From IMG/VR virus record IMGVR_UViG_3300049825_000186, positions 1 to 26,036 of that record: DNA of 26,036 bases, one strand, 5' to 3'. The position numbers and the translations under genes were made by a program. Within the stretch, counting starts at the first letter, position 1. The number at the start of each line of letters is the position of its first letter. The notes below the pieces were generated by a model that saw only the letters and a list, made by a program, of their open reading frames with translations, did not search any database and was not told the origin of the DNA. Source of the stretch: a virus. This document shows positions 3,288-26,036 of this stretch, piece after piece.

Positions 3288-3365
3288 GGTTTCACCGTAA
3301 CGTTGGGGATGGTGCGAGCCGCTTTTAGTCAGGCGGGCCGCTTGCCTGTTTCACCCCCTGGTGAA

Positions 3366-4190: not shown

Positions 4191-4196
4191 GGAGCC

Positions 4197-4490: not shown

Positions 4491-4705
4491 GACGCGCGGA
4501 CCTCAACCAAATTCGCCGTCGCCATAGCTTTGAGCAATTCCGGGCGGTAGCCGAGACGAAGCAGTTCCCGCTTGTACGCATCGCGCTCCATCTCCAGGTT
4601 AATCCGCTCTTGCTCTACGGTGCAGTAGTCCGCAACGCTCGGAGGGCGGGGCGGGTCGCCGGCGAAGGCTTCGGCTAGCCATTCTCTAAATCCGAACAGG
4701 CTCAT
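4487..4705 (-). CDS. Small phage protein of unknown function (72 aa)
   Basis: I do not recognise this protein. It starts MSLFGFREWLAEAF, an amphipathic helix, continues with a Pro-rich turn (GDPPRPPS) and then a charged helical region (residues 30-50, EQERINLEMERDAYKRELL). It overlaps the next gene by four bases (ATGA), typical of a translated late-operon gene. It follows the tail fibre gene, where chaperones or lysis regulators are often found, but nothing in the sequence decides. Confidence 0.6.
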   Translation of the reverse strand: MSLFGFREWLAEAFAGDPPRPPSVADYCTVEQERINLEMERDAYKRELLRLGYRPELLKAMATANLVEVRAS

Positions 4706-4733
4706 TTGGGGTCACTCCCGATGAGGTTGAAAG

Positions 4734-6110: not shown

Positions 6111-6183
6111 GGGTGAACTTCCCTCAAAAGGTGTGTTGGCGCGCTCGCGCGAATCCGGTTAGCCTCGGAGACGGAGGTGCGGG

Positions 6184-6315
6184 ATGGAAATTGGTATGTT
6201 TGTGCAGGTAGCGCTGACCGTCTGCGCCGCCGTGCTCGTTGGAATCTTCGTGGAGTTGCGCGGCCTTCGCCAACAAACCAAAGCCTTGCACGAACTGATC
6301 CGGCTGGGCCGTTAG
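6184..6315 (+). CDS. Small membrane protein on the opposite strand of the late operon (43 aa)
   Basis: The ORF starts at ATG with a strong GGAGGT ribosome site five bases upstream. It encodes an N-terminal hydrophobic helix (about residues 4-24, containing QVALTVCAAVLVGIFVEL) followed by a charged amphipathic tail (RGLRQQTKALHELIRLGR). It lies in the 201-base gap between the tail fibre and the ejection-type gene, facing the other way. Its TAG stop shares bases with the TAA stop of the 565 aa gene on the minus strand. A lysogeny-expressed moron such as an exclusion protein is plausible. A TTGGCG at 6136-6141 could be a -35 box but the -10 is poor. Confidence 0.55.
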   Translation: MEIGMFVQVALTVCAAVLVGIFVELRGLRQQTKALHELIRLGR

Positions 6316-9178: not shown

Positions 9179-9185
9179 TTGAACG

Positions 9186-10010: not shown

Positions 10011-10381
10011 TCGTCGCGGAGCACGCCAAGCAATGTCGCGTCCCCGTCATCGTACCAATTGCGCAAGACGCCCTCTAACTTCGCCCCCATGCGCAAGCAC
10101 ATCGGAACCATCGACGGGCGGACGTGCATCGAAATGCGTTTAACCTTCAATTCGTCCCAAACGTAATCGGTGAAGAACCGAGAGAACGCGACCGGCCATG
10201 ACTTCGCAGTGTGCGCAATCGACAAATCCACGTTGCGACCGTTGAAGCCGTTCAGCACGATGCCGCCGACGATTTCGCCGTTCTGCGTGTAACCGATCGC
10301 GTGATACGGCTCGGAGAATTCGGCGCGGCAGCGTTCGCCGACGAACTGAGCAACCAGCGGGCCTTGGACGATTTCCATCAT
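9995..10381 (-). CDS. GNAT-family N-acetyltransferase
   Basis: This 128 aa protein has the compact GNAT pattern: a strand with GEIVGGIVL (about 35-43), a central helix (FSRFFTDYVWDEL), a strand KRISMHVRP, and the C-terminal LRMGAKLEGVLRNWYDD, which matches the RimJ/RimL-style end (G-x2-x-EG-x-LR). It would move an acetyl group from acetyl-CoA to an unknown acceptor, perhaps a virion or host protein. The acetyl-CoA loop is only weakly conserved. The gene is embedded among tail genes, overlapping the nozzle gene by four bases (ATGA) and the next gene by 16 bases, so it is expressed late. Similar enzymes are known in tail clusters of some podoviruses; substrate unknown. Confidence 0.78.
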   Translation of the reverse strand: MMEIVQGPLVAQFVGERCRAEFSEPYHAIGYTQNGEIVGGIVLNGFNGRNVDLSIAHTAKSWPVAFSRFFTDYVWDELKVKRISMHVRPSMVPMCLRMGAKLEGVLRNWYDDGDATLLGVLRDEWRFN

Positions 10382-11976: not shown

Positions 11977-12674
11977 GGCGTAACCCTCACGTCCCCAAAT
12001 TCGTCTTCGTAATCGCCATGCGCAAGGTCGCGCGCCATCAAGCCCCAATCGTGCGAGGCTTCGGTTTCAAGCATCCGCTCGAACGACGACAGCGCCTCGG
12101 CATAGTCCAAGCCCTTCGCCGCCTTCCAGCGCCACACCAGCCCAAGGCGGATAAGGCGCTCGCTGATCCGGGCCGTGTCGGTGTCGTAGGTCCATTCGGC
12201 AATGTTGCCCGGCGTACCCGATCCGACTTGATAGATCGGCTTCGACGATTGGTAGCTTAGCGTGTAGGCTTCATCGTCCGCCGGCGCACTGTGGAACTTC
12301 ACATAGCCGCCCTCGATCTGATAGGCGGGCCTGGTCGAAATCACTTGCAGCGATGTGGCGCTGATCCATTCCGGCGCGGTAAGGGGACCAACGGCCCAAA
12401 ACGAAGACGTTGACCCGTCACGCGACAGCGCAGGCATTTTCGACAAGCGCGAAAAATCGGACGGCAAGGCAAAGTCCGTTGTCGTGCCGTCGCCCGTGAT
12501 TGCGTATGTGCTATGCAGCGCCCGCCAATCGTGACGCAATGCAAGGTCGTCGATCGTCTCTTGCGCCCATTCGACCATTTGCAACCACGTCTCTTCCGCC
12601 GACCCCATAACCGAGGTCGGAGGCGTGAGGCCGCATTGTCGAGCTGCGCGAGCGACGATCGTTAAAAGCGTCAT
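11973..12674 (-). CDS. Head-tail adaptor / tail tubular protein A (gp11-like)
   Basis: This 233 aa protein resembles the T7 gp11/P22 gp4 adaptor class. It has an N-terminal helical bundle (residues about 1-50, with ARAARQCGLTPPTSV and AQETIDDLALRHDW), then a beta-rich part beginning TYAITGDGTTTDFALPSDFSRL, and a helical C-terminal part (about 165-215). It would form the ring between portal and nozzle. It is immediately upstream of the nozzle-like gene and overlaps the preceding gene by four bases (ATGA). Full length for the family. Confidence 0.75.
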   Translation of the reverse strand: MTLLTIVARAARQCGLTPPTSVMGSAEETWLQMVEWAQETIDDLALRHDWRALHSTYAITGDGTTTDFALPSDFSRLSKMPALSRDGSTSSFWAVGPLTAPEWISATSLQVISTRPAYQIEGGYVKFHSAPADDEAYTLSYQSSKPIYQVGSGTPGNIAEWTYDTDTARISERLIRLGLVWRWKAAKGLDYAEALSSFERMLETEASHDWGLMARDLAHGDYEDEFGDVRVTP

Positions 12675-13288
12675 GCCGCGGCTTCTTCCTCAACCGGCGC
12701 CTTGGCCTTGCCCTTCTTCGGTTCGGCGCGGGCTTCCTGCATCGCCGCGATCTGCGCCCGCAATGCGTCCATATCGTTCGACAGACGAAGGTTTTCCGCC
12801 CGTACCGCTTCCATGTCAGGATTGACCGAGGCCAGCATGGTCTTGGCCTTCGCGATGATGTCGCGCGCCTTGGGGCCGAGCATCGAGGCAATGCCGCGCT
12901 CGTCAACCGCAACCAGCGCCTCAACGGTCGTAATCTTCGACGCCTCAAGCGTCTTGATCATCGCGGGCGTGAGGTCCGCGAGGTCTTCCAGCGGTGTCCC
13001 GCTCACGCTGTTGTCGAGACCTTCTTTCCAGCGGGCGTAATGGTCGCGGAAAGTGGAACGCGGAATGTCCAAAATCCCCTCGCCGTCCTTCATCGCAAGC
13101 CAGTCGTCCGTGATGAGGTCGGAATTCTCTTGCTTTGGCGAACCGGCAGACGGGATGCGCTGATAGGCAACCTCAACGTCGCGATAAACCTTGCGGCCCG
13201 CGATTTTCGATTGCACCGGATGTTCCTGCGCTTCGGTCGTGAAAATCACCGTCACGCCGTCATATTGGAAGGAGTATTCTTTCGCCAT
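12671..13288 (-). CDS. Virion-module protein with HhH-like motif and coiled coil (205 aa)
   Basis: The N-terminal part (about 1-100) is mixed, with YSFQYDGVTVIFTTE and basic stretches. Residues about 105-152 (DLTPAMIKTLEASKITTVEA, then GIASMLGPKARDIIAKAK) read like a pair of helix-hairpin-helix units of the type found in DNA-binding or RNA polymerase alpha C-terminal domains. Residues about 160-188 are a coiled coil, and the end is Lys/Glu/Ala rich. It sits between decoration and adaptor genes, where head-completion proteins are often encoded. No firm family match; a head-tail connector accessory or DNA-end binding role is speculative. Confidence 0.6.
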   Translation of the reverse strand: MAKEYSFQYDGVTVIFTTEAQEHPVQSKIAGRKVYRDVEVAYQRIPSAGSPKQENSDLITDDWLAMKDGEGILDIPRSTFRDHYARWKEGLDNSVSGTPLEDLADLTPAMIKTLEASKITTVEALVAVDERGIASMLGPKARDIIAKAKTMLASVNPDMEAVRAENLRLSNDMDALRAQIAAMQEARAEPKKGKAKAPVEEEAAA

Positions 13289-13313
13289 TTGAAACCTCGC
13301 GGGGGTGGAAAGA

Positions 13314-13335
13314 GGGAGGCAGTTTCCCGCCTCCC
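13314..13335 (-). terminator. Hairpin between capsid and tail gene blocks
   Basis: GGGAGGC (13314-13320) pairs perfectly with GCCTCCC (13329-13335) around an 8-base loop. On the minus strand it follows the decoration gene by nine bases and is followed by TCTTTCC, a short pyrimidine tail. It could partly terminate transcription so that capsid and decoration genes are expressed more than the tail genes behind it. Confidence 0.45.
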
Positions 13336-13344
13336 CTTATCTGC

Positions 13345-13842
13345 TTAGACGATCTGACCCTGAACGAATGGGCGAGAAATCGTAATCAGGCCCAAGCCTG
13401 AAGACGGCGTGCCGGTCGTGGTCGTAACCACGGCGTTAAGCACCTGTTCGCCGTTGACCGCCGCATCGTCAACGCTGCCGGGTGTCGCCGCCAGCATGAA
13501 GACGTTGGCGCCGGGGGCCATGGCGTTCGGAGCCTTCACAGCCGCAACGCCGCTGATCTGATACCAGCCGTATTGACTGGCAACATTGGCGGACATTGCA
13601 ACAGCGCAAGGACCGGACGCTGCGCCCGTCGCCGGAACAAGCGTGGTCGTGCCCAGATACGGGTCATAGATCACGAGTGAGCCGACAACCGTTGAGGCAA
13701 CGCCTTGCAGGTAGATGAATTCGCCGCCGCCGTAGGTATCATCGATACCGCTGACGATAGTTCCAAGCGGAAGCTTTTTTGTGGTGAGGGTGTCCGTGAA
13801 GATTTGCGGAAGAACCCACGATTCAGTGGAACGAAAAGCCAT
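13345..13842 (-). CDS. Head decoration-type protein (165 aa)
   Basis: The protein is rich in Val, Ala, Gly and Thr, has no charged clusters, and reads as a compact beta-rich fold (IVSGIDDTYGGGEFIYLQG, SGPCAVAMSANVASQYGWYQ). Its place directly after the major capsid protein and its length fit small trimeric decoration or stabilisation proteins (DUF2190-like style). A head fibre base is an alternative. Only 15 bases separate it from the capsid gene, so it is in the same transcription unit; a hairpin follows its stop. Confidence 0.6.
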   Translation of the reverse strand: MAFRSTESWVLPQIFTDTLTTKKLPLGTIVSGIDDTYGGGEFIYLQGVASTVVGSLVIYDPYLGTTTLVPATGAASGPCAVAMSANVASQYGWYQISGVAAVKAPNAMAPGANVFMLAATPGSVDDAAVNGEQVLNAVVTTTTGTPSSGLGLITISRPFVQGQIV

Positions 13843-13857
13843 GTGTTGGGTCCTCCC

Positions 13858-14844
13858 TTACGTATTGAGCAGCACGCCCTGCCCAGGCGCCCAATCGAGC
13901 GTCATGTTGCCGGCGAAGCCAATGAGGTTGATGGATGCGTCCTGGTTGACCGGAACGCGGCCCTCCCCGATCTGCTCAAGGTTGCGATCTTCGTGCGGAC
14001 GCAGGAAGAGATGGCGCGTGTTGAGCATGTACGTGGTATTTGCCGGGACGTTGCCGCCCTGACCGTTCGGCACAACATCGGCGCCCTTGTACTTGTAGGT
14101 TTCGAACCCCAAGTCGCCGTTCGTCGATGTCGTGATGCGCTGTAGGCCCTGCACTGCCGCCTCGAAGAAGATGAAATCTTCGTTCGACATCAGCACGAGG
14201 TCCGGCATGTCGGAGCCGCGAACCTGCGTGATCCAGAGCCGGTCCATGTAGAGCGATATATTTGTCGCGCTCTTGATCGCGCCGCCGTCCGTCAACGCTT
14301 GGTAGCGTTTGGAACGGGCAACGGTGTAGGTCGCACGGTTGATACCGCCGATCGTTCCCGTGGTGGGGTTTGAGGGAACCAAAAGCTGCAAGCCACCGAT
14401 CTGCTTACCGCCCGAAGCCGTTCCGTCCGAGCAACAGTCAGCATCGAGCTGGTTCTGTCCTTCGGACATCGCGTTCTCGATGCGGCTTTCGAGCAAGTCG
14501 ATGAGCTGGGCCTCGCCCTGGTTCATCAACAACTCTTCGCCGCTGATCGTAACCGCCAACATCGCGTACTTCGGATCGAACTCATACGAGCCGATCGTTT
14601 CGCTAGGTTGAATCGTCAACGGGTCGTAGCCGCGATAACGCGTCCACGTTGTGTTGCCAGAGTAGTGAAACTCTTGCAGGATCGTTCGTCCACCGCGCCA
14701 CGGCTTGATTTTGCCGCGCGTGCGAAGACGCCGAAGAACCGGATTGTTCGTGGACGTGCCGTCCGCCAGTTTGCCTGTGCGGCTGCGTGCAGTGGTCGCA
14801 ACGAGTTCCGATGCTTCGGTTACAGAAATTGAACCGATAGGCAT
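13858..14844 (-). CDS. Major capsid protein
   Basis: This 328 aa protein is preceded by the scaffold gene and followed by a decoration-type gene, the usual capsid order. The sequence has an N-terminal arm (residues about 1-45), then the conserved-looking segment NTTWTRYRGYDPLTIQPSET, FDPKYAMLAVTISGEELLMN and the spine helix AQLIDLLESRIENAMSEGQN, consistent with an HK97-fold E-loop and spine helix. The C-terminal part contains the ADVVPNGQGG and LGFETYKYKG strands. A strong AAAGGAT box precedes the ATG, as expected for a highly expressed gene. I recognise it as a phage major capsid family but cannot name the closest phage. Confidence 0.85.
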   Translation of the reverse strand: MPIGSISVTEASELVATTARSRTGKLADGTSTNNPVLRRLRTRGKIKPWRGGRTILQEFHYSGNTTWTRYRGYDPLTIQPSETIGSYEFDPKYAMLAVTISGEELLMNQGEAQLIDLLESRIENAMSEGQNQLDADCCSDGTASGGKQIGGLQLLVPSNPTTGTIGGINRATYTVARSKRYQALTDGGAIKSATNISLYMDRLWITQVRGSDMPDLVLMSNEDFIFFEAAVQGLQRITTSTNGDLGFETYKYKGADVVPNGQGGNVPANTTYMLNTRHLFLRPHEDRNLEQIGEGRVPVNQDASINLIGFAGNMTLDWAPGQGVLLNT

Positions 14845-14877
14845 TGGGGTAAATCCTTTTGTTGGGTTTGGTTCGTC

Positions 14878-15972
14878 TTAGACGCGCCCGGCAAGCATCG
14901 TTCGCACGCGGCTTGTGAGGTCGTCTCTCAGGCTTGCCGGACGGTCGGCCTTGCGGCCCTCGGCGGCGGGGAGGGTGCCGGCGACGGAACCCGAAGCAGA
15001 GCGCGCCTTGGTCAGTTCTTGCGTTCTGACTTGGGTTTGAGCCTGGGCTTGTTGGGCAGATTGTTCCGCGAGGATTTTCTGCCGTGTCCCTGGGTTAGCC
15101 CAAATGACGCGCTCGTAAATCTGTTTGAGGTCGGGCTGACGGCCTTGCGCTTTCTCGAAACCGATCTCGCGCATGATGTCGTCAGCGACTTCCTCGAAAT
15201 ACTTGTTGGCCGGGTCGGTGCGGAACTTCGTCACCTGCTCCTGTGCCGCGCGCAGTTTCTCGTTGCGCTGCGCTTCCAGTAATTGATCAACGCGGGGGTC
15301 GCGGAATTGCTGCTGCGGTTGCTGCTGTTGCTGGCCCTGTGGCACCTGGGCGCCGTTCGGGTTGACGCCCAGCTTCGTTAGCGCACTTACCAGCGTCTTA
15401 ACCGCCGATCCGTGATCGAGCCCCACGGCCTGCATCGCCGCAATGAGCCCATCGGGCGGGCTCTCGTACATCTTCGTCTCGACCGCGTGCATCCGGTCCA
15501 GCACTTCGGGGAGCGTGGTCCCGTTCTCCAGTGCCGTCTCGTGCCACCTCTTGAGCCCGCCGTAATTCTGGTGGAGCTGGTCGGCCTGCGTCTCGCGTTC
15601 CGTCACGTAGGCGCGCTGTTCCGGCGTCATCGCGGCCCACAGCGAGGCCTTGTCCGCACCCCAAGCCTTGGGCATGTCGGCGGGGCGTTCGATCTTGGCC
15701 GGCGCGATCGGTTGCGGCTGTGACGGGTCGAGGCCGTTCGGTGTTGGCGCTTTCTCGACCGGCGCGAATTTCCCCGTTGCCGGGTCGCGTGCGCGGTCGC
15801 GTAGGCCCTTGATACCGGCTTCTAGGCTGTCACGGAGCGACGGCCCCTTGTCGGCTTTCGGTTCTGGCGTGGTTGTCGTGTTTAGCGGCTTCTCGGACTC
15901 AAGAAGCGGTAGCGTAGGGAGAGGCGCAGGCGTCGGCTGCTCAACCGCGAGGCTGAGTTGTTCGTCTTCCAT
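14878..15972 (-). CDS. Capsid scaffolding protein
   Basis: This 364 aa protein is of low complexity and mainly helical. It has a Pro/Glu/Lys-rich N-terminus, a recognised-looking middle (MPKAWGADKASLWAAMTPEQ, about 99-118) that is common in podovirus scaffolds, a polyglutamine stretch (about 214-222) and a highly charged C-terminal half ending in RTMLAGRV. It would assemble inside the procapsid and leave before packaging. It lies directly upstream of the capsid gene. No protease motif is seen in it. Confidence 0.82.
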   Translation of the reverse strand: MEDEQLSLAVEQPTPAPLPTLPLLESEKPLNTTTTPEPKADKGPSLRDSLEAGIKGLRDRARDPATGKFAPVEKAPTPNGLDPSQPQPIAPAKIERPADMPKAWGADKASLWAAMTPEQRAYVTERETQADQLHQNYGGLKRWHETALENGTTLPEVLDRMHAVETKMYESPPDGLIAAMQAVGLDHGSAVKTLVSALTKLGVNPNGAQVPQGQQQQQPQQQFRDPRVDQLLEAQRNEKLRAAQEQVTKFRTDPANKYFEEVADDIMREIGFEKAQGRQPDLKQIYERVIWANPGTRQKILAEQSAQQAQAQTQVRTQELTKARSASGSVAGTLPAAEGRKADRPASLRDDLTSRVRTMLAGRV

Positions 15973-15984
15973 GGGGAGCGATCC

Positions 15985-16404
15985 TTACGGGGCAGTAAAG
16001 CGGCGCGAGCCGCCGAAATGATCCACCGCAACCCGCTTGCGCCGGTTGGGAGAATCTAAAGCTTGGAGTTTCTCGCTAAGCTCTTTGCGCAGGCTCACGC
16101 GCTCATCATTGTTGAGCCGGAATTTCTTGGGTTTAGGGCGGGGCAACGTCTCTTTGCTGCCCAGGATTTCGCACCCAGCCGCCTTCACCGCGCGGTAATA
16201 GTCCGCCTTGCTCGTGTAGGTCCGCCCGTCTGCGGGGCACTCAAGAGCGCCGCCAGGCAGTTCGTCGCTGATAACAGCGGGACACGGTAGGTCAGACCGA
16301 GCAACGCCCAGGTGGCGCTTGTAATGGCCCATGCACGCAGACGGCCAGGGCTCGTCCATGTCGTGCCATTCGGGGCAAACCGTGCATTTGCGGGAGCGGG
16401 GCAT
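15985..16404 (-). CDS. Small Cys/His-rich protein, probable zinc finger (139 aa)
   Basis: The start is taken as ATG at 16404, which overlaps the upstream stop (TAATG); a longer reading frame to 16491 would lie inside the upstream gene. C7-x2-C10, H13 and C24-x2-H27-x3-H31 form a likely zinc site. The rest is basic, with KADYYRAVKAAGCEILG and a Lys/Arg/Pro stretch (RPKPKKFRLNNDERVSL). Proteins of this kind occur between portal and scaffold genes in related phages. A role in DNA or RNA binding is likely from the charge, but not proven. Confidence 0.65.
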   Translation of the reverse strand: MPRSRKCTVCPEWHDMDEPWPSACMGHYKRHLGVARSDLPCPAVISDELPGGALECPADGRTYTSKADYYRAVKAAGCEILGSKETLPRPKPKKFRLNNDERVSLRKELSEKLQALDSPNRRKRVAVDHFGGSRRFTAP

Positions 16405-16994
16405 TAGGCGGCGCGGACGAATATCGCGGGCGGGATGCCGTTCGCGTATGTCAGAGCAGGCGCGGTTGACGGGAGAACATATGTTCCCCAAGTTCCGATC
16501 ACCTGATCATTCAAGATGGCGGCAACGCCGGTCGTGATGTCGCCGTCGCTGTCGCCAGCCCAAAACGTCTGTTGGTTTGCACCAGCCGCAAAGCCTCTGA
16601 ACGTGGGCTGCGTTCCCGTTGCACCGCCGTTGCGATGCGACACCGCGCAAAGCCAAACGAACCCGGCAGGAAGTGTTGCGGCAACCGTTGCCGAAAAATC
16701 ACCTGTGCCGGTCCCGACCGTGACCTTGCCACCATCAACGATCAGAGCACCAGGAACGCCGTTCAAGTTGGCATACGCACCGAACTGGACCTGCGTCTGC
16801 GCATCGCCCGCGCCGGTCGAGATATTGTAGCCGATGCGGTCGATGCGCGTTGGCTGCGGAACATAAAACAGCATGAAGTAGAGGCGAGATTCGGTCGCCA
16901 ATTGCGTCCCGCTCGCCCCGAGGTTGCTCGTGTAAAAGCGGCCAGTGACAAGGCCGGGATGAGCGCCAGCCGCGCTGATAAGGACCGCGCTCAT
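16404..16994 (-). CDS. Beta-rich virion protein, possibly head or tail fibre (196 aa)
   Basis: The sequence is dominated by Gly, Ala, Thr and aromatic residues (TRIDRIGYNISTGAGDAQTQ; FVWLCAVSHRNGGATGTQPT), with no membrane segment and no enzyme motif. It reads as a jelly-roll or fibre-tip type protein. Upstream it joins the 101 aa gene (stop directly followed by ATG), and downstream it overlaps the zinc-finger gene by one base. Its location between portal and scaffold is unusual for a tail fibre and fits a head-associated fibre or spike better. Unrecognised family. Confidence 0.6.
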   Translation of the reverse strand: MSAVLISAAGAHPGLVTGRFYTSNLGASGTQLATESRLYFMLFYVPQPTRIDRIGYNISTGAGDAQTQVQFGAYANLNGVPGALIVDGGKVTVGTGTGDFSATVAATLPAGFVWLCAVSHRNGGATGTQPTFRGFAAGANQQTFWAGDSDGDITTGVAAILNDQVIGTWGTYVLPSTAPALTYANGIPPAIFVRAA

Positions 16995-17300
16995 TTATTT
17001 AGGGTCCTGATAACGGCCAAGCCGAACGATGACGGCGGCAGATGGTGTCCCGCTCGCCAACTGAGCCCGAACTCGCATGGCTTGGCTTATCGCAATCGGA
17101 CCCTGCACGCCGTTCGCTGAGAACGGGTTTCCCACATTCACATACGTCGCATTATCGGGCAGCAATGCCTGCAACTGCCAAACGCCCGTACCCCAGTTCG
17201 AGGACACGTAATCCATGTTGTACAGACCGCCTTCGACCCCCGTGGCCGAGCCCGTTGCGGTGCTGCCTAACGAGGTAAGCGGATAGACCAAATCTTGCAT
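16995..17300 (-). CDS. Small beta-rich virion protein (101 aa)
   Basis: I do not recognise this protein. It has strands such as GLYNMDYVSSNWGTGVWQLQ and AMRVRAQLASGTPSAAVIV with little charge, like small head-fibre or decoration proteins. A GAGG box lies about nine bases before the ATG. A 110-base untranslated gap separates it from the portal gene upstream, and its stop lies directly before the ATG of the 196 aa gene. It may pair with that gene as base and tip of a head appendage (inference). Confidence 0.55.
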   Translation of the reverse strand: MQDLVYPLTSLGSTATGSATGVEGGLYNMDYVSSNWGTGVWQLQALLPDNATYVNVGNPFSANGVQGPIAISQAMRVRAQLASGTPSAAVIVRLGRYQDPK

Positions 17301-17366
17301 TGTTGAATCCTCGGTGAAATTGACCGGAGCGAGGCTCTAGTTCGGTCGGTTATGCGTAAGGATGCG

Positions 17367-17395
17367 CCCGCCCAGCGCTCGCGTGGGACGGCGGG
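17367..17395 (-). terminator. Possible hairpin in the portal to 101 aa gene gap
   Basis: In the 110-base non-coding gap 17301-17410, CCCG/CGGG and CCCA/TGGG form a stem with a 4-base bulge and a 9-base GC-rich loop. There is no T-run on the minus strand, so it is more likely an RNA processing or pausing element than an efficient terminator. Weak evidence. Confidence 0.25.
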
Positions 17396-17410
17396 TTGAC
17401 CGCTCGGGGG

Positions 17411-19411
17411 CTAGTGAAATGCGGGCGGCATGGCCTGACGGGCTTGCGCCGTCATCAACTTTGCCGCCGCGTTGATGTTTCCGTCACGCTCGGCAAGGTC
17501 AAGCTTACGGCCTTCGATCTGCCGGCGGTGCTGCGCATCTTGCGCCTCGCGATCCGCCGCAATGCCCTGCTGCTGTTGCTCGGCTTGCTGCATCTGCGCC
17601 TGTTGCATTTGCTGCATCTGCATCTGTTGGGCTTTCGCCTCGACCGCCTGCACCAGCTCTTGCATTGACGTTTCGATGCGCTCTTCCAATTCCCGACCGG
17701 CCCGAAACCCGCGCGCCAAGAACGTGATCGAATCCCCCACCAACGGAATGAGGGCCTTCGCCATCATTGGATCCATGGTCTGCATCGACATAAGCGGGGC
17801 CATGGCTTGCGTCATCGTGGTCATGAATTCCACGCGGCGCTGCTTCTCGGCGTCCTCGTCCGGCTGGATCGTTGAATCCGTCTCAACGTCCACCAGCACG
17901 TCGCGGGCGAATTGCTGGCGCAGCAACTTGACCCAGCCCGCATCGAGCGGCAGCCCCGTCATGGGGTCGATAGCGGGCTGTTGCGTCACCTGCGGACCTT
18001 GCGGCCCCATCACTTGCTGCATGGCCTGCGCCGGCAGCGAGGTCATCATGGCGAGCTTTTGCGTCGTGTAGTGCTCGGCCACAATCTCCGCGAAGATTTC
18101 GCAACCCTCTTTCGCAAACCGCACGAAGTCGTCGCGCGTGTCCTTGAGGCGGTTGGAGCCATACTGAGCCTTGAGGCTTTGCGCCGTCGCCGTCTCTTGC
18201 GCTTCGGTCTGACCGCGCATTACGTCCGACAGGCCCGTGATCTGATAAATGTCCTCGATGAGCTGCTTACGCAACTGCACGCAGGCTTCGATTGTTTTGA
18301 TGACCTGATCGATCGGCAGATAGACGATCAGGTTTCCGGCACCGCCCTTTTCCGACAACGCCGCCCAATTCGGAACCGGGATGAGCTTGTTCTCGACGCC
18401 CGGCGTCATGGCGCGTTCGACTTCCGCGCGCCCCTCGCCCGATGGGCCGCCCGGGTAGAAGCCGACCAGCTTCAAGCTGTCCGTCAGCTTGTCGATACGG
18501 CGCGTGAGGCGCTGAATTTCTTCGGCCTGGTCCTGGTAGTACACATAGTCAGGCGTCGGGATGATGCTGTCGTTCGATACCGTGCCCAATACGGGCTTCG
18601 GGAACGGCCAGAAGTTCTTGAGGTCGAGCGGCGGCGGCGTGACGGCCAAAGCCTCCCGCGCGTTCTTCGCGATCCAATAGACCGCTTTGCGCGACTTGCA
18701 CCAGATTTGATACACGGTCGCCTGACGTTCATCGTCCGGCGCGTCCTTCTCGGCATAATCGAGCGAGACCCCGGCGCGCTCCATCACATCGTCGCCGAAC
18801 CGCTTCTTCAGCATCTCATCGGTGAAGTACGTTTCACGCCAAGCGCAGTCTACCTCTTCCCAAACCCGCCCCTCGCCGTGCCCGAATTTGGTGAACGGCA
18901 CAAAATGGGCGTTGATCGTTTGCGATGTGATTTGCTGACCGTCGTCCTGCGCTTCGTAGTCGATCCAAATCGTACCACGTGCCGCAAGCAACCGATCCTG
19001 CCGCGCCGCCATGATGGCCTGATGCAACCCACCGTCCGCAATCGCGATATTCGTGGCCCGCTCCAATCCGATGACGGCATTGCGCACGTCTTCGTTGGGC
19101 GTCTGAAACCGGCGCGACACGACGCACTTCGGAGCACGCGAGTAAACCGCAGGCCCCAGCGTCTGCACGTTTGCCCAGAGCACCGGGTATTTGCGCTTGA
19201 TCGCCTGCGTCGGCGTGCTTTCGGTGTCGGCGTACAGCTTCACGATTTTTTCGGCACGAGATAGCCAGCCCGTGCGCTTCTTCTCGTGGCGTTCCACCAC
19301 GGCAAGCCATTTTTTTTGAACGGCCACCAAATCAATTTGGCCGTCTGCGGTGACGGCAGAGCCTTCGCCCCCCTCGCCGCCTTCCATCGCCTGCGCGTAT
19401 TGGTCAGTCAT
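17411..19411 (-). CDS. Portal protein
   Basis: This 666 aa protein is of the podovirus portal type. It would form the dodecameric ring at one capsid vertex through which DNA enters and leaves. Family-like features include an N-terminal wing/stem region (YPVLWANVQTLGPAVYSRAP), the central beta part (TPDYVYYQDQAEEIQRLTRR, about 285-304), the long crown/stem helices with DIYQITGLSDVMRGQTEAQE and TATAQSLKAQYGSNRL. The end is a Met/Gln-rich coiled coil (about 590-620), the likely barrel/crown extension. It overlaps the upstream gene by one base (TAATG). An A8 run lies near codon 31. Upstream terminase and downstream scaffold/capsid genes support the call. Confidence 0.92.
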   Translation of the reverse strand: MTDQYAQAMEGGEGGEGSAVTADGQIDLVAVQKKWLAVVERHEKKRTGWLSRAEKIVKLYADTESTPTQAIKRKYPVLWANVQTLGPAVYSRAPKCVVSRRFQTPNEDVRNAVIGLERATNIAIADGGLHQAIMAARQDRLLAARGTIWIDYEAQDDGQQITSQTINAHFVPFTKFGHGEGRVWEEVDCAWRETYFTDEMLKKRFGDDVMERAGVSLDYAEKDAPDDERQATVYQIWCKSRKAVYWIAKNAREALAVTPPPLDLKNFWPFPKPVLGTVSNDSIIPTPDYVYYQDQAEEIQRLTRRIDKLTDSLKLVGFYPGGPSGEGRAEVERAMTPGVENKLIPVPNWAALSEKGGAGNLIVYLPIDQVIKTIEACVQLRKQLIEDIYQITGLSDVMRGQTEAQETATAQSLKAQYGSNRLKDTRDDFVRFAKEGCEIFAEIVAEHYTTQKLAMMTSLPAQAMQQVMGPQGPQVTQQPAIDPMTGLPLDAGWVKLLRQQFARDVLVDVETDSTIQPDEDAEKQRRVEFMTTMTQAMAPLMSMQTMDPMMAKALIPLVGDSITFLARGFRAGRELEERIETSMQELVQAVEAKAQQMQMQQMQQAQMQQAEQQQQGIAADREAQDAQHRRQIEGRKLDLAERDGNINAAAKLMTAQARQAMPPAFH

Positions 19412-19785
19412 TACGAGAATCCAACCTCGCCCTCGGCTTGGAACGTGAGCGCCGTTGTCGTACCAGCACCGCCCACGAGGAAGTCAGTGGATGCCAACAC
19501 AAGACGCCCAAACCACTCAACATACGAGTTCGCCGCAACGCTTGTGCCGATGCCCATAAATTCGGTACCCGCCGCGTTCGCACCCGTCGCACCGATCCAG
19601 AGCGAGAATGTCGCCGCCGAGCCGGTCTTATTGATGATGCGAATGTGTGACAGGATCAAAACCGGCTGCGTCAGCGTGATACCGACCGGACCGGCAAGCG
19701 ATGTGATCGCGCCGTTCAGGATGTTGGTCGTGAGCGTGGTTGTGAGCGCCACGGGTCCGATGCGGACCAGCTTGTTTTGTGCCAT
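19411..19785 (-). CDS. Beta-rich virion protein (124 aa)
   Basis: The protein has alternating hydrophobic strands (LVRIGPVALTTTLTTNILNG, ILSHIRIINKTGSAATFSLW) and almost no charge. The NKTG-x-AATFSLWIGATG strand-turn pattern is common in small phage virion proteins that make head or tail appendages. It is translationally coupled to the portal (TAATG). Function beyond virion association is unknown; it could be a capsid-fibre or connector subunit. Confidence 0.6.
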   Translation of the reverse strand: MAQNKLVRIGPVALTTTLTTNILNGAITSLAGPVGITLTQPVLILSHIRIINKTGSAATFSLWIGATGANAAGTEFMGIGTSVAANSYVEWFGRLVLASTDFLVGGAGTTTALTFQAEGEVGFS

Positions 19786-19794
19786 GCGAGTTCC

Positions 19795-21252
19795 CTATTC
19801 AAAGAAGCCGTCAACCGCGACGGACCCGCGGAAGATTTCCGTGGCCGTGGCCGTGCCGATCGGCATTTTCAGAATGATGTGCAGGAAGCGGCTTGGCTGA
19901 ACGACCATCGGCGTCCCCGGCGTCCAATTGAAACCGGGTTGGATGGCGCTGATCGCCGCCGCAATCGGGAACGACTGCGAGCCGATCTGCACACGCATCG
20001 GGGTGTAAGGAGCCGCCGTCGCAAGCGAGACCGCCGACGAATTGAATGCGGCACCCCATTGCAGGATCGTGGCCGTGGTCGCAACCGCCGCAACCATGTT
20101 CAACGTTTCGCCGATGCGAATGCCGGTGCAATAGAACGTGTAGGGGCTTGGATTCTGCCAGCCGAATAAGGCGTAGTCGGTTTCGGCACCAGCCACCGCC
20201 GCGAATTGCCATTGGCCGCCGAGCGCCGTGTAACCGGCCGCCGTGTTCGAGAGCGTCGCGCTGGCTGGGGCCGCGCTGTTCGAATAGTTGGCTGTCTGAA
20301 CGTAGCCCGTGGGGCTCGTTAGGCTGTTGAGGCCCATCCCCGACAGGGCGACCACATGCGGCCGCTGCGACCACATATCGGCCAAGAGCACGGAGCAGTG
20401 ATTGACGACGATCTGGGGTGCCGTGCCCGCCGCGCCCGAATTGTAGCAACGGAAGAAGCAGGGAATATGCGTGACCGCGAACAACCGCTGCTGTGACGCG
20501 ACACCCGTACCGGAACCACCCGTGGCACCGCGCTCCATCACCTGCGATGAAAGCAAAACGCCGGTTACGGACGTAATTTGGAACGTGGCCCGGTCGTCTT
20601 CGAGAAATATCTCATACCAGGCGTAATCGGTCGTGGCTGGACCGGTCATCGTCGGCCCGGCACCCTCGGTACCGTTGAACGATAGGATCGGCTGGAGCGA
20701 TCCCGCACCATCGCGCCGGAAGAACGCACCGTTTTGAATAATTGCGGTGGTCGAATCTGATGGCTGACCGAAGCCCCATTCTTCGAAACAGTTGGTCGCG
20801 CCCTGGTAACGGAGCCGCGCCCGGAAGATCAACGACCCGCGCGCGGCAATCGGGAAATGACGGTGCGATACCTCAAGGGCGCCCTGTGCGTTGGTCACGC
20901 TTGAGCCTGAGTTGAGGTTCAGGCCGCTTGCAAGAGATTGAGCCGTGGTGAACGATGCAACCGTTTCAATCCATTGGTTGAGGTTGCGCGTCGTGCCCTC
21001 GAACGCATCCCACAGCATGACCGTATCGTCACCGGCAATCTGTAGCGCGCCAGTTGACGATGCCCGCAGCGTACGCGCGATCTTGTAATCTTTGCCCGCA
21101 TTGATGACGCCGCCGGCCGTCTCGGACACCGCCGCACGGTTTGCAGCCGTTAGCAGGTTGCCGGAGCTGTCATAGAGAGACGCCCGCGCGGCCTTGGAGG
21201 TCGTGTCGATCGTCAGAACGTCAGCCGATGCACCGGACTGGATTTGAGCCAT
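19795..21252 (-). CDS. Large beta-rich virion protein, probable fibre or adhesin (485 aa)
   Basis: The first ~75 residues (GASADVLTIDTTSKAARASLYD) are a short repeat-like start found in phage appendage proteins. Residues about 90-300 look like a lectin-type jelly roll (GSLIFRARLRYQGATNCFEE, YAWYEIFLEDDRATFQITSV). The last ~150 residues form another beta domain (TDYALFGWQNPSPYTFYCTG). No catalytic motif identified. It stands between the collagen-like gene and the 124 aa gene, near the portal rather than near the tail genes, so a head-attached fibre that binds a carbohydrate is plausible (inference). It overlaps the upstream collagen-like gene by one base (TAATG). Confidence 0.65.
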   Translation of the reverse strand: MAQIQSGASADVLTIDTTSKAARASLYDSSGNLLTAANRAAVSETAGGVINAGKDYKIARTLRASSTGALQIAGDDTVMLWDAFEGTTRNLNQWIETVASFTTAQSLASGLNLNSGSSVTNAQGALEVSHRHFPIAARGSLIFRARLRYQGATNCFEEWGFGQPSDSTTAIIQNGAFFRRDGAGSLQPILSFNGTEGAGPTMTGPATTDYAWYEIFLEDDRATFQITSVTGVLLSSQVMERGATGGSGTGVASQQRLFAVTHIPCFFRCYNSGAAGTAPQIVVNHCSVLLADMWSQRPHVVALSGMGLNSLTSPTGYVQTANYSNSAAPASATLSNTAAGYTALGGQWQFAAVAGAETDYALFGWQNPSPYTFYCTGIRIGETLNMVAAVATTATILQWGAAFNSSAVSLATAAPYTPMRVQIGSQSFPIAAAISAIQPGFNWTPGTPMVVQPSRFLHIILKMPIGTATATEIFRGSVAVDGFFE

Positions 21253-22088
21253 TAAGCCGCCACCTGATAGAAGACCTTGCGCTTACCCGTGATCGGGCCG
21301 GGCGCTGCCGCCGCATATACCGTCGCGCTACCCGCCGCCGCCTTGGCCGCGAACGTAATCAAGTCCATTTCCCATTCGTCCGATTGCAGACCGGTTGGCG
21401 CGTTGCCGCTTGGCAAAACCATGACCTTTGACGAAGACCCAATTCCCGCATCGACAATTGAAAATTGCGCGTTCCAAACCGGACTGGAGCCGAAATCGAA
21501 TTCAACCTCTGTCCATGTTGAGCCACCGCCGCCCGCACCCGTGGCGCCTGTCGCACCTGGTGGGCCGCGCTCGCCGTCAACGCCGTCCTCGGCCAAGAAC
21601 CACAACGCCGGACCCATCGGCCCTTGTGCGCCCGTAGCACCGTCAGCGCCGCGAGCCCCAGGCGGACCCATGATGCCGTCTTCGCCATCGGCGCCGTCAT
21701 AACCGATCGGCCCACGCTCGCCCTGCGCGCCTGCGCTGCCGCTCGTCCCTGCCGCGCCTGCTGCGCCCGGAATACCGCGCTCGCCTTCAGGCCCATCTTC
21801 GGCGAGGAAGAACAAGGCGGGTCCCATCGGACCTTGCGCCCCGGTTGCGCCGGCCGCTCCGTCCGAACCGCGTTGGCCGGGAACGAATAGCGGTTCCTCG
21901 AACTCGCTGCCCGCCGCCGCCAATGCAGCAAGCGCAGCACCGACCGCGCCCGCGCTACCTGCCGAACCGCCACCACTCGCCGCCGCAATATCGGCAATCA
22001 ACAGCTTGAGAAGGTAGTTCAGCCAGTATTCCCGATCGCGCCCGCGACCCGGTACGTATAGGTCAATATCGTTTGAACTGACCGTCAC
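21252..22088 (-). CDS. Collagen-like virion protein (278 aa)
   Basis: Residues about 71-188 are Gly-x-y triplets typical of collagen-like phage fibres (GATGAQGPMGP, GERGPPGATG). They are interrupted twice by a non-collagen insert, ALFFLAEDG at 91-99 and ALWFLAEDG at 161-169, spaced 70 residues apart. The N-terminal ~40 residues (with DREYWLNYLLKLL) probably anchor it to the virion, and the C-terminal ~85 residues are a globular beta cap that may nucleate the triple helix. The start is GTG, two codons past the terminase stop. Such proteins form flexible trimeric fibres on heads or tails; the place before the portal suggests a head fibre. Confidence 0.8.
   Translation of the reverse strand: MTVSSNDIDLYVPGRGRDREYWLNYLLKLLIADIAAASGGGSAGSAGAVGAALAALAAAGSEFEEPLFVPGQRGSDGAAGATGAQGPMGPALFFLAEDGPEGERGIPGAAGAAGTSGSAGAQGERGPIGYDGADGEDGIMGPPGARGADGATGAQGPMGPALWFLAEDGVDGERGPPGATGATGAGGGGSTWTEVEFDFGSSPVWNAQFSIVDAGIGSSSKVMVLPSGNAPTGLQSDEWEMDLITFAAKAAAGSATVYAAAAPGPITGKRKVFYQVAA
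21567..21848 (-). repeat. Two in-frame copies of a collagen/insert unit
   Basis: Copy 1 covers 21777-21848 and copy 2 covers 21567-21638, 210 bases (70 codons) apart. Both encode ATGAQGPMGPAL, an aromatic residue, FLAEDG and then a GERG. They differ at a few residues and at several synonymous bases, which points to an old internal duplication kept under protein-level selection. Confidence 0.75.
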
Positions 22089-22091
22089 AGG

Positions 22092-23463
22092 CTAAATCCG
22101 CTGCTCGCGCTTCGATGAATAGGCGATGTGCTCGTCCCATGTGCCAAGGTCGGTACGGATCGGCGGCTTAACCTTCGGCGCTTCCGTCTCGAGCGTGACC
22201 CAGCCCATAGCGAGGGCTCTGAAGGCGTCAGCCCCGTGCGAAGCCCAATCGTGCAACGGCGCGTCCGCAAACGTCTTGCGCTGCTCGTTCCACTGGCGGC
22301 GGTAATTGCGAACCGCCCGAAGCCCAGCCGCGCACTTCACCGCGTCGAACCGGCACGCCGGGATGGTCTTACGCACCGCCGATATGCCGTCAGCCACGAA
22401 GTGCATCGGCACCACGCGAGGCTTGCGGCCTTCCTCAATCATTATTTCCACACGCGTTCGCGGTGGATTACCGATCGGCATCCGCTGGCGGGCATCGTGG
22501 GGCAAGAGGTCGTTGCCCTTGTAGCCCCGCGCCTCCAGCCATTCGATGTAATGTTCGAGGCCCTGGCCCGACGCCTCGTAGTAGTCCACGACGCGGATGT
22601 GATCGGGCGTCACCTGGAAGCACCAAATCGCGGTGCTATCCGAAACGCCCAAGTCCCATGCCGTATGCACGGGGAAGTCGTTCAGTACAGGCACAGCCCC
22701 AATTCGCCCGGTCTTCTCGGCTGTTTCCACAAGACGCGCGTAATAGCTCCCGATGAGCGGCGCGACGAAGCTGCACCTGTATTCCTGGTCAAAGAGCGCC
22801 TGGCCGTCTTCCGGGCCGTGGCGGTCTTGCATTTCGGCGAGTTCGCTGGCGAGCTGCTCCGGGGTGAAGACGCCCGTGTCGTCAACGCTGAGCTTCTCAG
22901 CAAACCATTGCTCGGGGTGCGTGACTGCGTAGTCGTACACCTGCTTGAAGTGATTATCGCCACGCGGCGTGCTGATGAAACAGGCCCAGCCATCATTCGC
23001 GGCAACGATCGGTCTGAGGTAGTCCCATGCCTGCGGCTTCGCGAGCGCGTATTCAGAGAAGACAATCCCGTAAGGCGTCGAGCCGACTAGGCTGTCGTAG
23101 TTGTCCGAGCCTACCACACGCCACACTGACCCGTTGGTGAAACGGATCATCATCTCGTCTTCGCGCGTGTTCGACCGCAGTTCCTTCGGGAACGCCTGAT
23201 CGATCCTGCGCTTACCGGTTGATGGGTCTACCGCTTCCCAAATGGCTTTCCGGGCTTGTGCGGCCTCGGGGAGCATGTGCCAAACCTCGCCCACACGCTG
23301 CACCATCGAAACCGCCGCCCAATTCAAGGCGAGGTCGTCTTTGCCCGAGCTATCGGCGGTGCCACACTAGGAGGCACCGCTTAACCCCTTTCTCAAGCGC
23401 ACCCCAGGCGCTCATCTGATAGGGGCGCGGGCGCCAGTTGTTAGGCAGCGTGACGATGGGCAC
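22092..23463 (-). CDS. terL: Terminase large subunit, interrupted by a frame change at Walker A
   Basis: The packaging ATPase/nuclease is spread over two frames. Frame 1 starts at GTG 23463, directly after the small subunit stop, and reads VPIVTLPNNWRPRPYQMSAW ... VWHRR before TAG at 23350-23352. Frame 2 continues as SGKDDLALNW and runs to 22092. Removing four bases (TAGC) would give WHRRSGKDDLALNW, very close to the WHRRAGKD Walker A known in this family; total would be 455 aa. Counting from the TTG at 23327 (411 aa downstream part), Walker B is IVFSEY (88-93), the coupling motif ISTPRG (118-123), and nuclease acids D225, D278 and D367 are intact. A perfect hairpin lies just upstream of the break. 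Sequencing error, a true mutation or recoding cannot be separated here. Confidence 0.9.
23356..23380 (-). repeat. Perfect 8-bp inverted repeat next to the terminase frame break
   Basis: GCGGTGCC (23356-23363) and GGCACCGC (23373-23380) form a stem around a 9-base loop. In the minus-strand mRNA its 3' edge lies three bases before the in-frame UAG at 23350-23352. It falls in codons for KRCLLVWHR, so part of the match could be codon choice, but eight perfect pairs at this exact site are notable. Confidence 0.6.
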
Positions 23464-23739
23464 TCAATCACCCGTGAATTTGATTACGTGCACCTGCAAC
23501 GGCCCGCCGTCCTTGCCCGACACTTCAAGCGATTGGGCGGACTTCCCGTGGCCGCGATCCAGCAATTCCTTAATGGCCGCTACACGTGCCGCTTCGCTTT
23601 GAGCGTTACTGGCGAGCCGCCCAAGTTCGGCTAGGGCCGCTTCGGTGTACTGACCGGCGAGGGCTTTGATATCCGCCGTCGCCTTGGTGACAGCCCCGAC
23701 CTTGCGACCGGCGCCTGTGCGCTTACCGCCGCGTGGCAC
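23464..23739 (-). CDS. terS: Terminase small subunit-like protein (91 aa)
   Basis: The basic N-terminus GGKRTGAGRKVGAVTKAT is the start typical of many small terminases and of DUF5681-like proteins. A helical centre (ALAGQYTEAALAELGRLASN; EAARVAAIKELLDRGHGKSA) follows, which suits oligomerisation. It would recognise phage DNA for packaging. It starts at GTG with an AAAGGA box and ends directly before the GTG of the large subunit. Shorter than many small terminases, but gene order supports the role. Confidence 0.75.
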   Translation of the reverse strand: MPRGGKRTGAGRKVGAVTKATADIKALAGQYTEAALAELGRLASNAQSEAARVAAIKELLDRGHGKSAQSLEVSGKDGGPLQVHVIKFTGD

Positions 23740-23775: not shown

Positions 23776-24054
23776 CTATTCCTTCTCAGCCCACCCCTCC
23801 ACCAACACGGCAATGTGGCCGCGGGGGATTAGGGCGGATTTAGTATGGCCCCTGTGTAGAAAGTGGGGCGGGCGCCAGCGGTCTACGGTGTCTTGGTTCC
23901 TGTGCCAGCGGGCGTCGATCCGGCGGATTGCTATGTCGGTTATGCCCTGGAGTGTTGCGCGGGCCTTTGCCTCGCGAACAACGTCGAACAGGCCCGGCCA
24001 CGATTGAACGGGGCGCGGCATTGTGAATGCGAATGTTACCGCTGAAAGGTGCAT
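23776..24054 (-). CDS. Hypothetical protein (about 92 aa)
   Basis: This reading frame lies between the NusG-like gene and the small terminase. I do not recognise it. The body (PRPVQSWPGLFDVVREAKAR, IRRIDARWHRNQDTVDRW) is basic with five Trp and looks like a folded protein rather than chance. Neither ATG 24054, TTG 24087 nor ATG 24021 has a clear ribosome site; 24054 is chosen as the longest ATG version. In the same frame upstream there are three stops within ~70 bases, so an intact longer gene is excluded. An HNH-type fold was considered but the His/Asn pattern is not convincing. Confidence 0.45.
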   Translation of the reverse strand: MHLSAVTFAFTMPRPVQSWPGLFDVVREAKARATLQGITDIAIRRIDARWHRNQDTVDRWRPPHFLHRGHTKSALIPRGHIAVLVEGWAEKE

Positions 24055-24132
24055 GGGCTTGGCTGTCGTGGGTCGATAGCCGACCAAAGTGCGCTAGCTG
24101 GGGTGCTAGGGCTGGATTGACCCGGCTCCCCG

Positions 24133-24162
24133 CATATAAGCGGATCACTGCCAGACGGTCAG
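24133..24162 (-). promoter_or_regulatory. Possible late promoter
   Basis: On the minus strand CTGACC (24157-24162) and TATATG (24133-24138) are separated by 18 bases, each four of six from the sigma-70 consensus. The position, in the non-coding stretch before the packaging genes and after the NusG-like gene, suits a late-operon promoter. The -10 region lies in a small inverted repeat, CCGC...GCGG. Based on motif only. Confidence 0.3.
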
Positions 24163-24251
24163 GCGTCCTAGGCCGGTGAAGTACAAGCCCTAGTGGTAGA
24201 ACGCAATATGTTGGGCTGCAATTCCCGGCAGGTGTTGCACGTGCGACACGA

Positions 24252-24752
24252 TCAGGCGATGACCCGGCCCACGGCCTCCCGCTCCACCTCGAACGGCAAT
24301 CCGCCCGATAGAAGCTGCACCTTGATCCGTCGCCCCACTTCCATGACGCGGGCGCGCTTGCCACTGAGTAGGGCGTGCTCCAGTTCGACGATGGCGTTGC
24401 GATCGATCTTGGCCGGGTGACCTTTCGCCTGCGCAATTGATTGGGCCATGGCAACCTCGTTGATAGTTGTCAGCTCAGCATCGCTCACTAATTTCTCACG
24501 GAATATTCTCAGGCGGATTTTTGCGGTTTCGAATTTCTGCTTTCGGAACGCATCGTCACGCGCGATGAAAATGTAATTCGCGAGCAGCGGGAATTTCCCG
24601 GTCGTGAAAATGTATCCGCGCTTCGTCCACTTGCGCCGGCGCGAAATGTATTCGGGGCAGTAGGAATTAAACCCCGCATTCTTAATTCGCGCGGAAATTT
24701 CGAATTCCCAACCGCCCGGAACGCGCGTTGCCCACCAACCATCAGCATTCAT
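24252..24752 (-). CDS. NusG/RfaH-like transcription elongation factor (phage antiterminator candidate)
   Basis: The start ATG 24752 is preceded by GAGGGA at good spacing; a longer frame from 24809 lies inside the upstream gene. The 166 aa protein has an NGN-type pattern: WWATRVPGGWEFEISARI at the start, GFNSYCPEY (27-35), a basic loop, and FPLLANYIFI (54-63), which matches PLFPGYLFV. The C-terminal end GRRIKVQLLSGGLPFEVERE (140-159) fits the KOW end of NusG, where V-x-V-x-x-x-x-G-x-x-x-P-V-E-L-x is usual. NusG paralogues bind RNA polymerase and prevent termination at chosen operons. Placement right before the ~22 kb late operon suggests late-gene antitermination (inference). Confidence 0.78.
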   Translation of the reverse strand: MNADGWWATRVPGGWEFEISARIKNAGFNSYCPEYISRRRKWTKRGYIFTTGKFPLLANYIFIARDDAFRKQKFETAKIRLRIFREKLVSDAELTTINEVAMAQSIAQAKGHPAKIDRNAIVELEHALLSGKRARVMEVGRRIKVQLLSGGLPFEVEREAVGRVIA

Positions 24753-24790: not shown

Positions 24791-25732
24791 TCAGTTTCGA
24801 CCATGCCAAGCATCGTCAAAATCGCTAGACGCCGTGGGCGACTTTGACGTTTGAGTTACGGCGGTGTCTGGTGGTGGTGACTCGGGGACAGCATGCTCAG
24901 CACCAACCAAATCGAGAAATTCGCGCGTCGCACCGTCCAAATTGATGTTCGACGCACGCGATTTCGATGCAGGGGCACGGTTGCGATCGACCATTTCCTT
25001 CACCGCAGCCGACACGCGCGCTTTTTCTTCCTCGGTCGGCGGGATCCAGGGCTCATCGGTCCAGAGAATTTTCCGGCAGGGGTATGGACCGATGCCAAGA
25101 CCAACTGCGCGCCCGAAGTGTTTCGTCAATTCACGACCGAATTTCTGGCGCACGTAATCGGCTTCGAATTCTGACAGCCCGAATATCTCATGCGGCTCGT
25201 AGCATTCGGCCTTGGCGAAAAAGAAATGTTCCGACGTGGGGTGTTGGCTATCGAGCCACCGCTTCCAAATCGGGAAACGACGCAGCGGACTGTCCGAATA
25301 CAAAAAACCCTTCATGCTCTCGGCCGGCTCGATCCGTCGCGGGTGAATTCCATGACGGTTCGCGGCTGCCTCAATCGGGGCACGCAGCATCCGGTCCGCA
25401 ATCGAACGGATGTCGGCAGGGCGCGGCCACCTGGAATGACCCCGCAGCCATTCGGTCACGGCACCGTCAACGATCACGGCCGGCAGGTCGGCTAGAGCCG
25501 TGACCCATTCTTCCGCCATGACTTTCGCCTTCGACCGATCGCTTCCCCACGGGTCCCCGTAAACCGCAACGAGCCGTACCAACGACCGGTTGACGATTTC
25601 CGAATCCGAGTTGCGCTCGAACTCAGTGCCGAGCAGCTTCGCGTTCAGCCCTGGCGGCGAGATAGTTTTCGAGGAAGACATCCCCGGCGGCGCCAGGCTT
25701 CCCATGCTGTCCCGATCCGTTGGCTCGTCCAT
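24791..25732 (-). CDS. Phage replication protein, possible helicase loader (313 aa)
   Basis: Residues about 40-115 (SLVRLVAVYGDPW, VMAEEWVTALADLPAVIVDG, EWLRGHSRWPRPADIRSIAD) follow the pattern of the N-terminal helical domain of phage helicase loaders and replication accessory proteins: a target helix, a P-A-x-x-x-x-A helix and a W/F-P-x-P-A-D/E-I-R motif. The central part is rich in aromatics (FPIWKRWLDSQHPTSEHFFF) and the C-terminal ~60 residues are disordered and polar. ATG 25732 has a GGAG box but lies 110 bases inside the upstream gene; ATG 25705 is an alternative. It follows another replication-type gene. Exact role is uncertain. Confidence 0.6.
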   Translation of the reverse strand: MDEPTDRDSMGSLAPPGMSSSKTISPPGLNAKLLGTEFERNSDSEIVNRSLVRLVAVYGDPWGSDRSKAKVMAEEWVTALADLPAVIVDGAVTEWLRGHSRWPRPADIRSIADRMLRAPIEAAANRHGIHPRRIEPAESMKGFLYSDSPLRRFPIWKRWLDSQHPTSEHFFFAKAECYEPHEIFGLSEFEADYVRQKFGRELTKHFGRAVGLGIGPYPCRKILWTDEPWIPPTEEEKARVSAAVKEMVDRNRAPASKSRASNINLDGATREFLDLVGAEHAVPESPPPDTAVTQTSKSPTASSDFDDAWHGRN

Positions 25733-26036
25733 TTGCGTACACTCCGTATGCGTTCAGTGCCCAGTTGCGCCACGTCGCCGGCCAATCGACCTTCGCGGCG
25801 TCGCGACCGGACTTCGCTGTCCAAAAATTTGTGAACTTCTCGGCCTCAAGCATGAGGTCGATGATCGGCAGGCCGCGCTCGGTGCGCTTGAGCGCCGCTG
25901 CCGCGATCCAATCATCCGGGACCGCCTGGCCTGGGGGCCAACGGGTGCCGTTCTGTCGTTTTGAGGAAATCGGCTTTGAAGCGGGCTTGGGGTGGGGTTT
26001 GCTTTGCTCAAAGCAAACCAACAAAGGTTCCGCTGG
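25623..26036 (-). CDS. Replication initiation-type protein, C-terminal part (runs off window)
   Basis: The frame is open to the right edge of the window, so only the last 137 codons are visible. The segment PDDWIAAAALKRTERGLPII, then EAEKFTNFWTAKSGRDAAKV and DWPATWRNWALNA is the characteristic C-terminal block of phage replication initiators of the lambda O/DnaD-like or DUF1376 style, which bind the origin and recruit helicase. Before it is a Pro/Lys-rich linker (KPHPKPASKP) encoded by DNA that contains a 24-bp near-perfect palindrome. The N-terminal DNA-binding domain must lie beyond the window. The gene overlaps the next by 110 bases. Confidence 0.75.
   Translation of the reverse strand, partial: PAEPLLVCFEQSKPHPKPASKPISSKRQNGTRWPPGQAVPDDWIAAAALKRTERGLPIIDLMLEAEKFTNFWTAKSGRDAAKVDWPATWRNWALNAYGVYANGRANGSGQHGKPGAAGDVFLENYLAARAEREAARH
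25996..26019. repeat. 24-bp palindrome in the replication gene
   Basis: GGTTTGCTTTG (25996-26006) and CAAAGCAAACC (26009-26019) are exact inverse copies, separated by CT. The 11-bp arms are AT-richer than the surrounding DNA and lie in the linker part of the replication-initiator-like gene. In lambda-type phages the origin lies inside the initiator gene, so an origin or operator site is plausible. Confidence 0.6.

Follow-up and report, generated by a model that had tools for sequence, protein, structure and literature searches.

Specialised NusG paralogues have been described for operons on chromosomes and plasmids, among them RfaH, UpxY, LoaP and ActX; the UpxY proteins serve capsule operons in Bacteroides. 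The Q proteins of lambdoid phages do not belong to the NusG family; their gene directly precedes the late operon, the leader of which contains a pause and a terminator. The longer form of the consensus for transcriptional pausing reads GGN6TGYG. Hallmarks of the consensus pause are -10G, -1Y and +1G (PMC10268239), and the ops element of the E. coli RfaH system matches this type (PMC7819879, PMC10268239). A DNA site within the late promoter is where Q engages polymerase in a sigma-dependent pause (PMC6606751). The RNA hairpin of LoaP does not give rise to a discernible pause (PMC12691694). Here we describe a phage gene that probably encodes a specialised NusG paralogue acting as a processivity factor for the late genes, in the place that Q occupies elsewhere.

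The stretch of DNA analysed, referred to as the window, is an IMG/VR virus record of 26,036 bases. An intact open frame of 166 aa with an ATG start lies on its minus strand at 24252..24752 and contains the motifs (WWATRV, PE and PLLANYIFI) that an earlier note had read as landmarks of the NGN domain. Single profiles give NusG-family signals that are weak but consistent for this sequence. The Pfam NusG model matched with E=0.0035 and 18.3 bits, below the curated cutoff of 22.2 that the relatives tested exceed, and PHROG 6386, annotated as 'transcription antiterminator', matched with E=0.006. The top-scoring profile was NCBIfam UpxY (E=8.6e-9), although its 35.6 bits are far under the UpxY cutoff of 100. 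An HMM built from 27 relatives, with the window protein left out, scored that protein at 36.7 bits (E ~1e-13, as obtained in a one-sequence search). An AF2 prediction from the single window sequence was poor (mean pLDDT 45.8) and was set aside. The model computed with 13 relatives, all proteins from loci fetched in this analysis, has the NGN order strand-helix-strand-strand-strand-helix, with 10-residue blocks averaging pLDDT 69-92 over residues 1-70. When this model was compared with the PDB by Foldseek, the best 18 matches were all RfaH or NusG, and VIA-align gave a Z of 8.9 and an rmsd of 2.8 over 101 residues against recruited RfaH. The NusG/Spt5 assignment is therefore based on the NGN fold and the relatives' HMM, not on the Pfam cutoff, and by its modelled fold the window gene encodes a very divergent NusG-family protein with an NGN domain. 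The structural part of the earlier proposal is thus borne out. Its KOW-like end is not: the KOW-only profile was matched or beaten by 30 of 500 shuffles, and the C-terminus is short (35-50 aa) and modelled at pLDDT below 50. A KOW alignment made by hand was dropped as evidence after the shuffle test. Single-protein scans of IMG/VR and of GTDB genomes returned no close relatives of the window protein; the sole match in the phage scan was 28% identical (E 0.2), and 385 genomes of one class yielded just four weak NGN matches. As a consequence, the window's own cis element could not be traced by comparison.

The gene was correctly placed at the junction of early and late regions. Upstream of it, on the same minus strand, are a gene to which no function was assigned (24791..25732; PHROG 8924, E=0.00021) and, on the early side, a fragment of a primosomal or replication-initiation-like gene (25623..26024; PHROG 3992, E=3.3e-10). 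Downstream lies an intergenic leader (24055..24251, minus), by its position the expected site of a recruitment element, followed by a small minus-strand open frame (23776..24054; 92 aa from its ATG) that has no family match and is only a possible gene. The late operon starts with a terminase small subunit-like gene (terS; 23464..23739, minus; PHROG 2538, E=0.00025, and PHROG 15261, E=2.4e-20) and the large subunit gene (terL; 22092..23454, minus; PHROG 2 and 2472). The presumed target, comprising terminase, portal, capsid, tail and other late genes recognised by profile matches, extends over 2091..23739 on the minus strand. The description of the gene as followed by a long operon thus stands, with the late genes running from 23739 to about 2091; the strand, which had not been given, is minus for both. 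The hairpins said to be visible along this operon were not recovered, as a strict terminator scan of its transcribed strand returned one terminator-like site only, at 14384. An integrase of the tyrosine-recombinase type is encoded on the plus strand at the opposite end of the window. A DNA methylase gene at 3366-4190 (Pfam N6_N4_Mtase, E 8e-24) belongs to the late gene block and lies towards its distal end. The terL reading frame changes near 23350, at 23345-23355, inside the ATP-binding loop: one part runs from 23454 to 23353 and ends WHRR, and the part in the other frame, from 23348, begins SGKDD. A sister contig, L261, reads through terL without a frame change, and the shift in the window may reflect a sequencing or assembly error or a decayed prophage.

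The position of the gene was then considered across relatives. IMG/VR was scanned by NusG sequence alone, using the proteins of a Bradyrhizobium phage, a Labrenzia phage and the window as queries, which gave 15 loci. The large terminase begins 600-1642 nt downstream of the NusG gene and on the same strand in 15/15; 11 of these terminases were verified by profile, and the remaining four (L022, L026, L029 and L030) are near copies of checked loci. The terminases found beside NusG paralogues form at least six groups, seven by identity when the Bradyrhizobium phage is included, and the phage relatives belong to PHROG 6386. The reverse approach started from 80 loci with relatives of the window TerL, 61 of which had at least 2 kb upstream and were evaluable; a NusG-like gene lies upstream in 7 of them, and none was seen there in the other 54. 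Because all 15 loci found through NusG have the arrangement but only 7/61 found through TerL do, NusG-before-terminase is a recurring layout and one of several solutions. The sister contig L261 (TerL 75% and portal 66% identical to the window) has a terminator before terS and a non-NusG gene directly adjacent. The terminator-like sequence, AGCCCTGCGAAAGTGGGGCTTTTTT, is found at about 480-520 just ahead of terS, and the upstream neighbour has no Pfam match.

Comparison of relatives revealed that the DNA separating the NusG gene from the terminase contains short blocks conserved far more than their surroundings. In one group of loci, designated clade 1, they make up an element of 64 bp composed of GCAAATC, a variable stretch of about 14 bases, GGCCGGT, a variable 5-32-base loop, and TTTCACCCGCCGGGYGGCTTGTGTC. 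The core of the element is invariant although the flanking DNA is not alignable. For example, L023 and L020 are identical at 23/23 core bases, while their NusG proteins share only 44% and 54% identity, respectively, with the Bradyrhizobium phage protein. At the end of the element the core holds GGGYGGCTTGTG, a full match to the pause pattern GGN6TGYG. Searching all of IMG/VR with the 20-bp core gave 27 stretches. Left out of these were L033, L049 and L055, three instances of a single unrelated coding sequence in which the GGCCGGT arm is absent, and L034, L038 and L054, which are too near a contig end. A NusG-paralogue frame lies directly upstream on the same strand in 20 of the 21 evaluable full copies. 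A looser form of the pattern picked up 71 further loci with partial matches, of which 0/71 have a NusG-like frame; these chance matches serve as a negative control. In GTDB (85,000 species genomes) the core matched eight times, about as often as a 20-mer would by chance in 257 billion bases, and one of the eight, in Bradyrhizobium tropiciagri, is a full element with the NusG gene present. Two named isolates have the full cassette, a B. tropiciagri genome and Bradyrhizobium phage ppBjS10J-1 (L002), where the NusG paralogue is at 4220-4852 and the element at 5116. The single full copy without a NusG gene (L039:1450-1483) sits on a rearranged fragment, the portal gene of which is split by about 1.2 kb carrying a bacterial-looking membrane-protein gene. 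The arms GGCCGGT and ACCCGCC could pair with one mismatch, the pairing ending 10 bases short of the putative 3' end of the RNA. The stability of the clade-1 RNA hairpin was not above that of shuffles, and since its pairs are nearly invariant there is hardly any covariation by which it could be proven; judged from sequence, such a hairpin is only plausible.

Terminators accompany these leaders. A strict scan of the DNA from the NusG gene to TerL in 22 loci detected 12 intrinsic terminators, compared with 0.6 in mononucleotide shuffles. Measured from the clade-1 element, an intrinsic terminator occurs within 150 nt downstream in 13/24 loci, where 0.8 is expected from dinucleotide shuffles and random windows gave 8/240. 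Several clade-1 leaders have no recognisable T-run. A conserved CCCCCA is present in the leader-terminator loops of L035, L038, L040, L043, L044, L050, L051, L052 and L002, and the motif is retained in L041 and L042, two leaders without a T-run. A second clade, made up of L341-L346 and the Labrenzia phage L006, has a conserved leader of its own that differs from that of clade 1. This leader is alignable between L006 and the others despite NusG identity of 27%, and it closes with a terminator just ahead of the small terminase region.

In the window itself, the leader gave no counterpart. The clade-1 core pattern is absent from it at up to two mismatches, and the clade-1 covariance model had no match in the window up to E 10. 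A scan for a pause plus hairpin found nothing in the leader, and neither GGN6TGYG nor a minus-strand intrinsic terminator was found in 24251-23740. With up to two mismatches allowed, the ops sequence GGCGGTAGNNTG was not found in 23740-24251, and across the whole window it occurs at chance level only. Rfam gave no match at this end of the window or in six relatives, and a tRNA gene search found none. Examining 23740-24251 for a conserved element, as had been suggested, therefore turned up no clade-1 element, pause or terminator; the partner element that the earlier note had left unidentified was again not found in the window, and one has been found in relatives. Because identity between the window NusG protein and those of the clades in which elements were found is only 17-23%, the window leader may use another code; a Rho-directed mode is also possible. 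By eye, a weak promoter-like CTGACC-17-TTATAT can be picked out at about 24165-24135, where the promoter scan found none. GGCTTGT at about 24189-24183, likewise seen by eye, overlaps the clade-1 element by 7 bases and is too short to count.

Set against the described systems, the locus resembles RfaH/ops in having a NusG paralogue with an NGN domain whose nearest solved structures are RfaH, and the clade-1 element resembles ops in matching the consensus pause (PMC7819879). The differences are that RfaH targets chromosomal and plasmid operons, whereas here the gene directly precedes its presumed target inside a phage; that the clade-1 element has another sequence and places an inverted repeat ahead of the pause; and that the window leader lacks an ops match. 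RfaH also has an alpha-helical autoinhibitory KOW that refolds, and the C-terminus of the window protein is modelled with low confidence. LoaP of Bacillus velezensis is likewise a NusG paralogue near its target operon, acting with a leader hairpin and an intrinsic terminator that polymerase reads past (PMC12691694). A comparable hairpin is plausible in the clade-1 leader, and none was assigned in the window. However, the targets of LoaP are antibiotic gene clusters; in the phage relatives a consensus pause stands at the end of the element, and a late operon is the presumed target. Lambdoid Q is matched in that the gene immediately precedes the late operon, both in the window and in 15/15 relatives; the leader terminator is matched in two relative clades, but none was found in the window leader. 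Although UpxY is the best profile, the window score is far below the UpxY cutoff. The protein family itself is already known as PHROG 6386, which is a sequence family; we came across no target site described for it.

The order NusG gene, pause-type leader element, terminator and late operon is that expected for antitermination by loading at a pause. In such a scheme, the NusG paralogue would be made together with the early genes. RNA polymerase would begin the late transcript just past the NusG gene and pause in the leader, where the paralogue would load through its NGN domain and remain bound. The polymerase could then pass the leader terminator, or Rho, and read the entire late operon. For the relatives, action of the NusG paralogues as Q-like late antiterminators is the most likely reading; in the window, an antitermination mechanism is inferred. 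The proposal that late control is exerted by a NusG paralogue instead of a Q- or N-type protein is accordingly strengthened by the constant position before the terminase (15/15) and by the leaders and terminators of two clades, but the empty window leader does not add to it. More broadly, we lean towards the view that NusG paralogues are widespread phage late antiterminators replacing Q, with clade-specific leader codes and a cassette that moves independently of terminase type. On this view, the clade-1 code would consist of the CAAATC box, the inverted repeat and the consensus pause, and each code would recruit its paralogue just ahead of an intrinsic terminator that keeps polymerase out of the genes for packaging and structure.

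Several other explanations deserve consideration. The clade-1 element could be a cos/pac packaging site or another terminase site, with the NusG gene nearby only incidentally, and its location between the NusG gene and terS/terL, its GC-rich composition and its inverted repeat would all suit such a role. Nevertheless, the same element precedes at least five terminase groups with little or no mutual similarity, its full copies co-occur with the NusG gene, and the element model found nothing in the 80 loci with relatives of the window TerL except a borderline L119 (E 0.17). A packaging site is thus highly improbable, and we rejected it because the element is common to different TerL groups. Alternatively, the paralogue may antagonise Rho or compete with host NusG, acting globally without a specific leader site. 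The lack of a detected site in the window leader agrees with this idea, as does the broad silencing of foreign genes by Rho (PMC7819879), yet a global factor would account poorly for the constant place ahead of the late operon and for the dedicated conserved leaders and terminators in two relative clades, and we regard it as unlikely.

It is also conceivable that decay or repurposing has left the window protein with an NGN domain only and devoid of antitermination activity, perhaps in a degraded prophage. Its strong divergence, the unconfirmed KOW domain, the frame shift in terL near 23350 and a leader in which neither element nor terminator was found would fit. Such decay is nonetheless quite unlikely given the intact 166-aa frame and the well-modelled NGN core, and the frame shift may itself be a sequencing or assembly error. 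A specialised NusG paralogue supporting late transcription is the reading we prefer.

In the open-access papers searched, we came across no account of a NusG paralogue controlling the late operon of a phage, nor of the clade-1 element, and a paper on RfaH evolution does not mention phages. If the proposed role is true, NusG-family proteins would be a third kind of phage antiterminator alongside N and Q. With its consensus pause and terminator on one short piece of DNA, the clade-1 element would be a directly testable recruitment site and a simple handle for locating late-operon control in many uncultured phages. Two further loci are of note. In one Azospirillum genome (A. canadense in GTDB), at least two specialised NusG-like frames are present (L146 and L148). 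In L027, the leader following the NusG gene (8501-8670) starts with a stretch resembling the 5' part of a Ser/Leu tRNA (GGTGTCCGAGTGGCTGAG), and a strong intrinsic terminator comes after this tRNA-like stretch.
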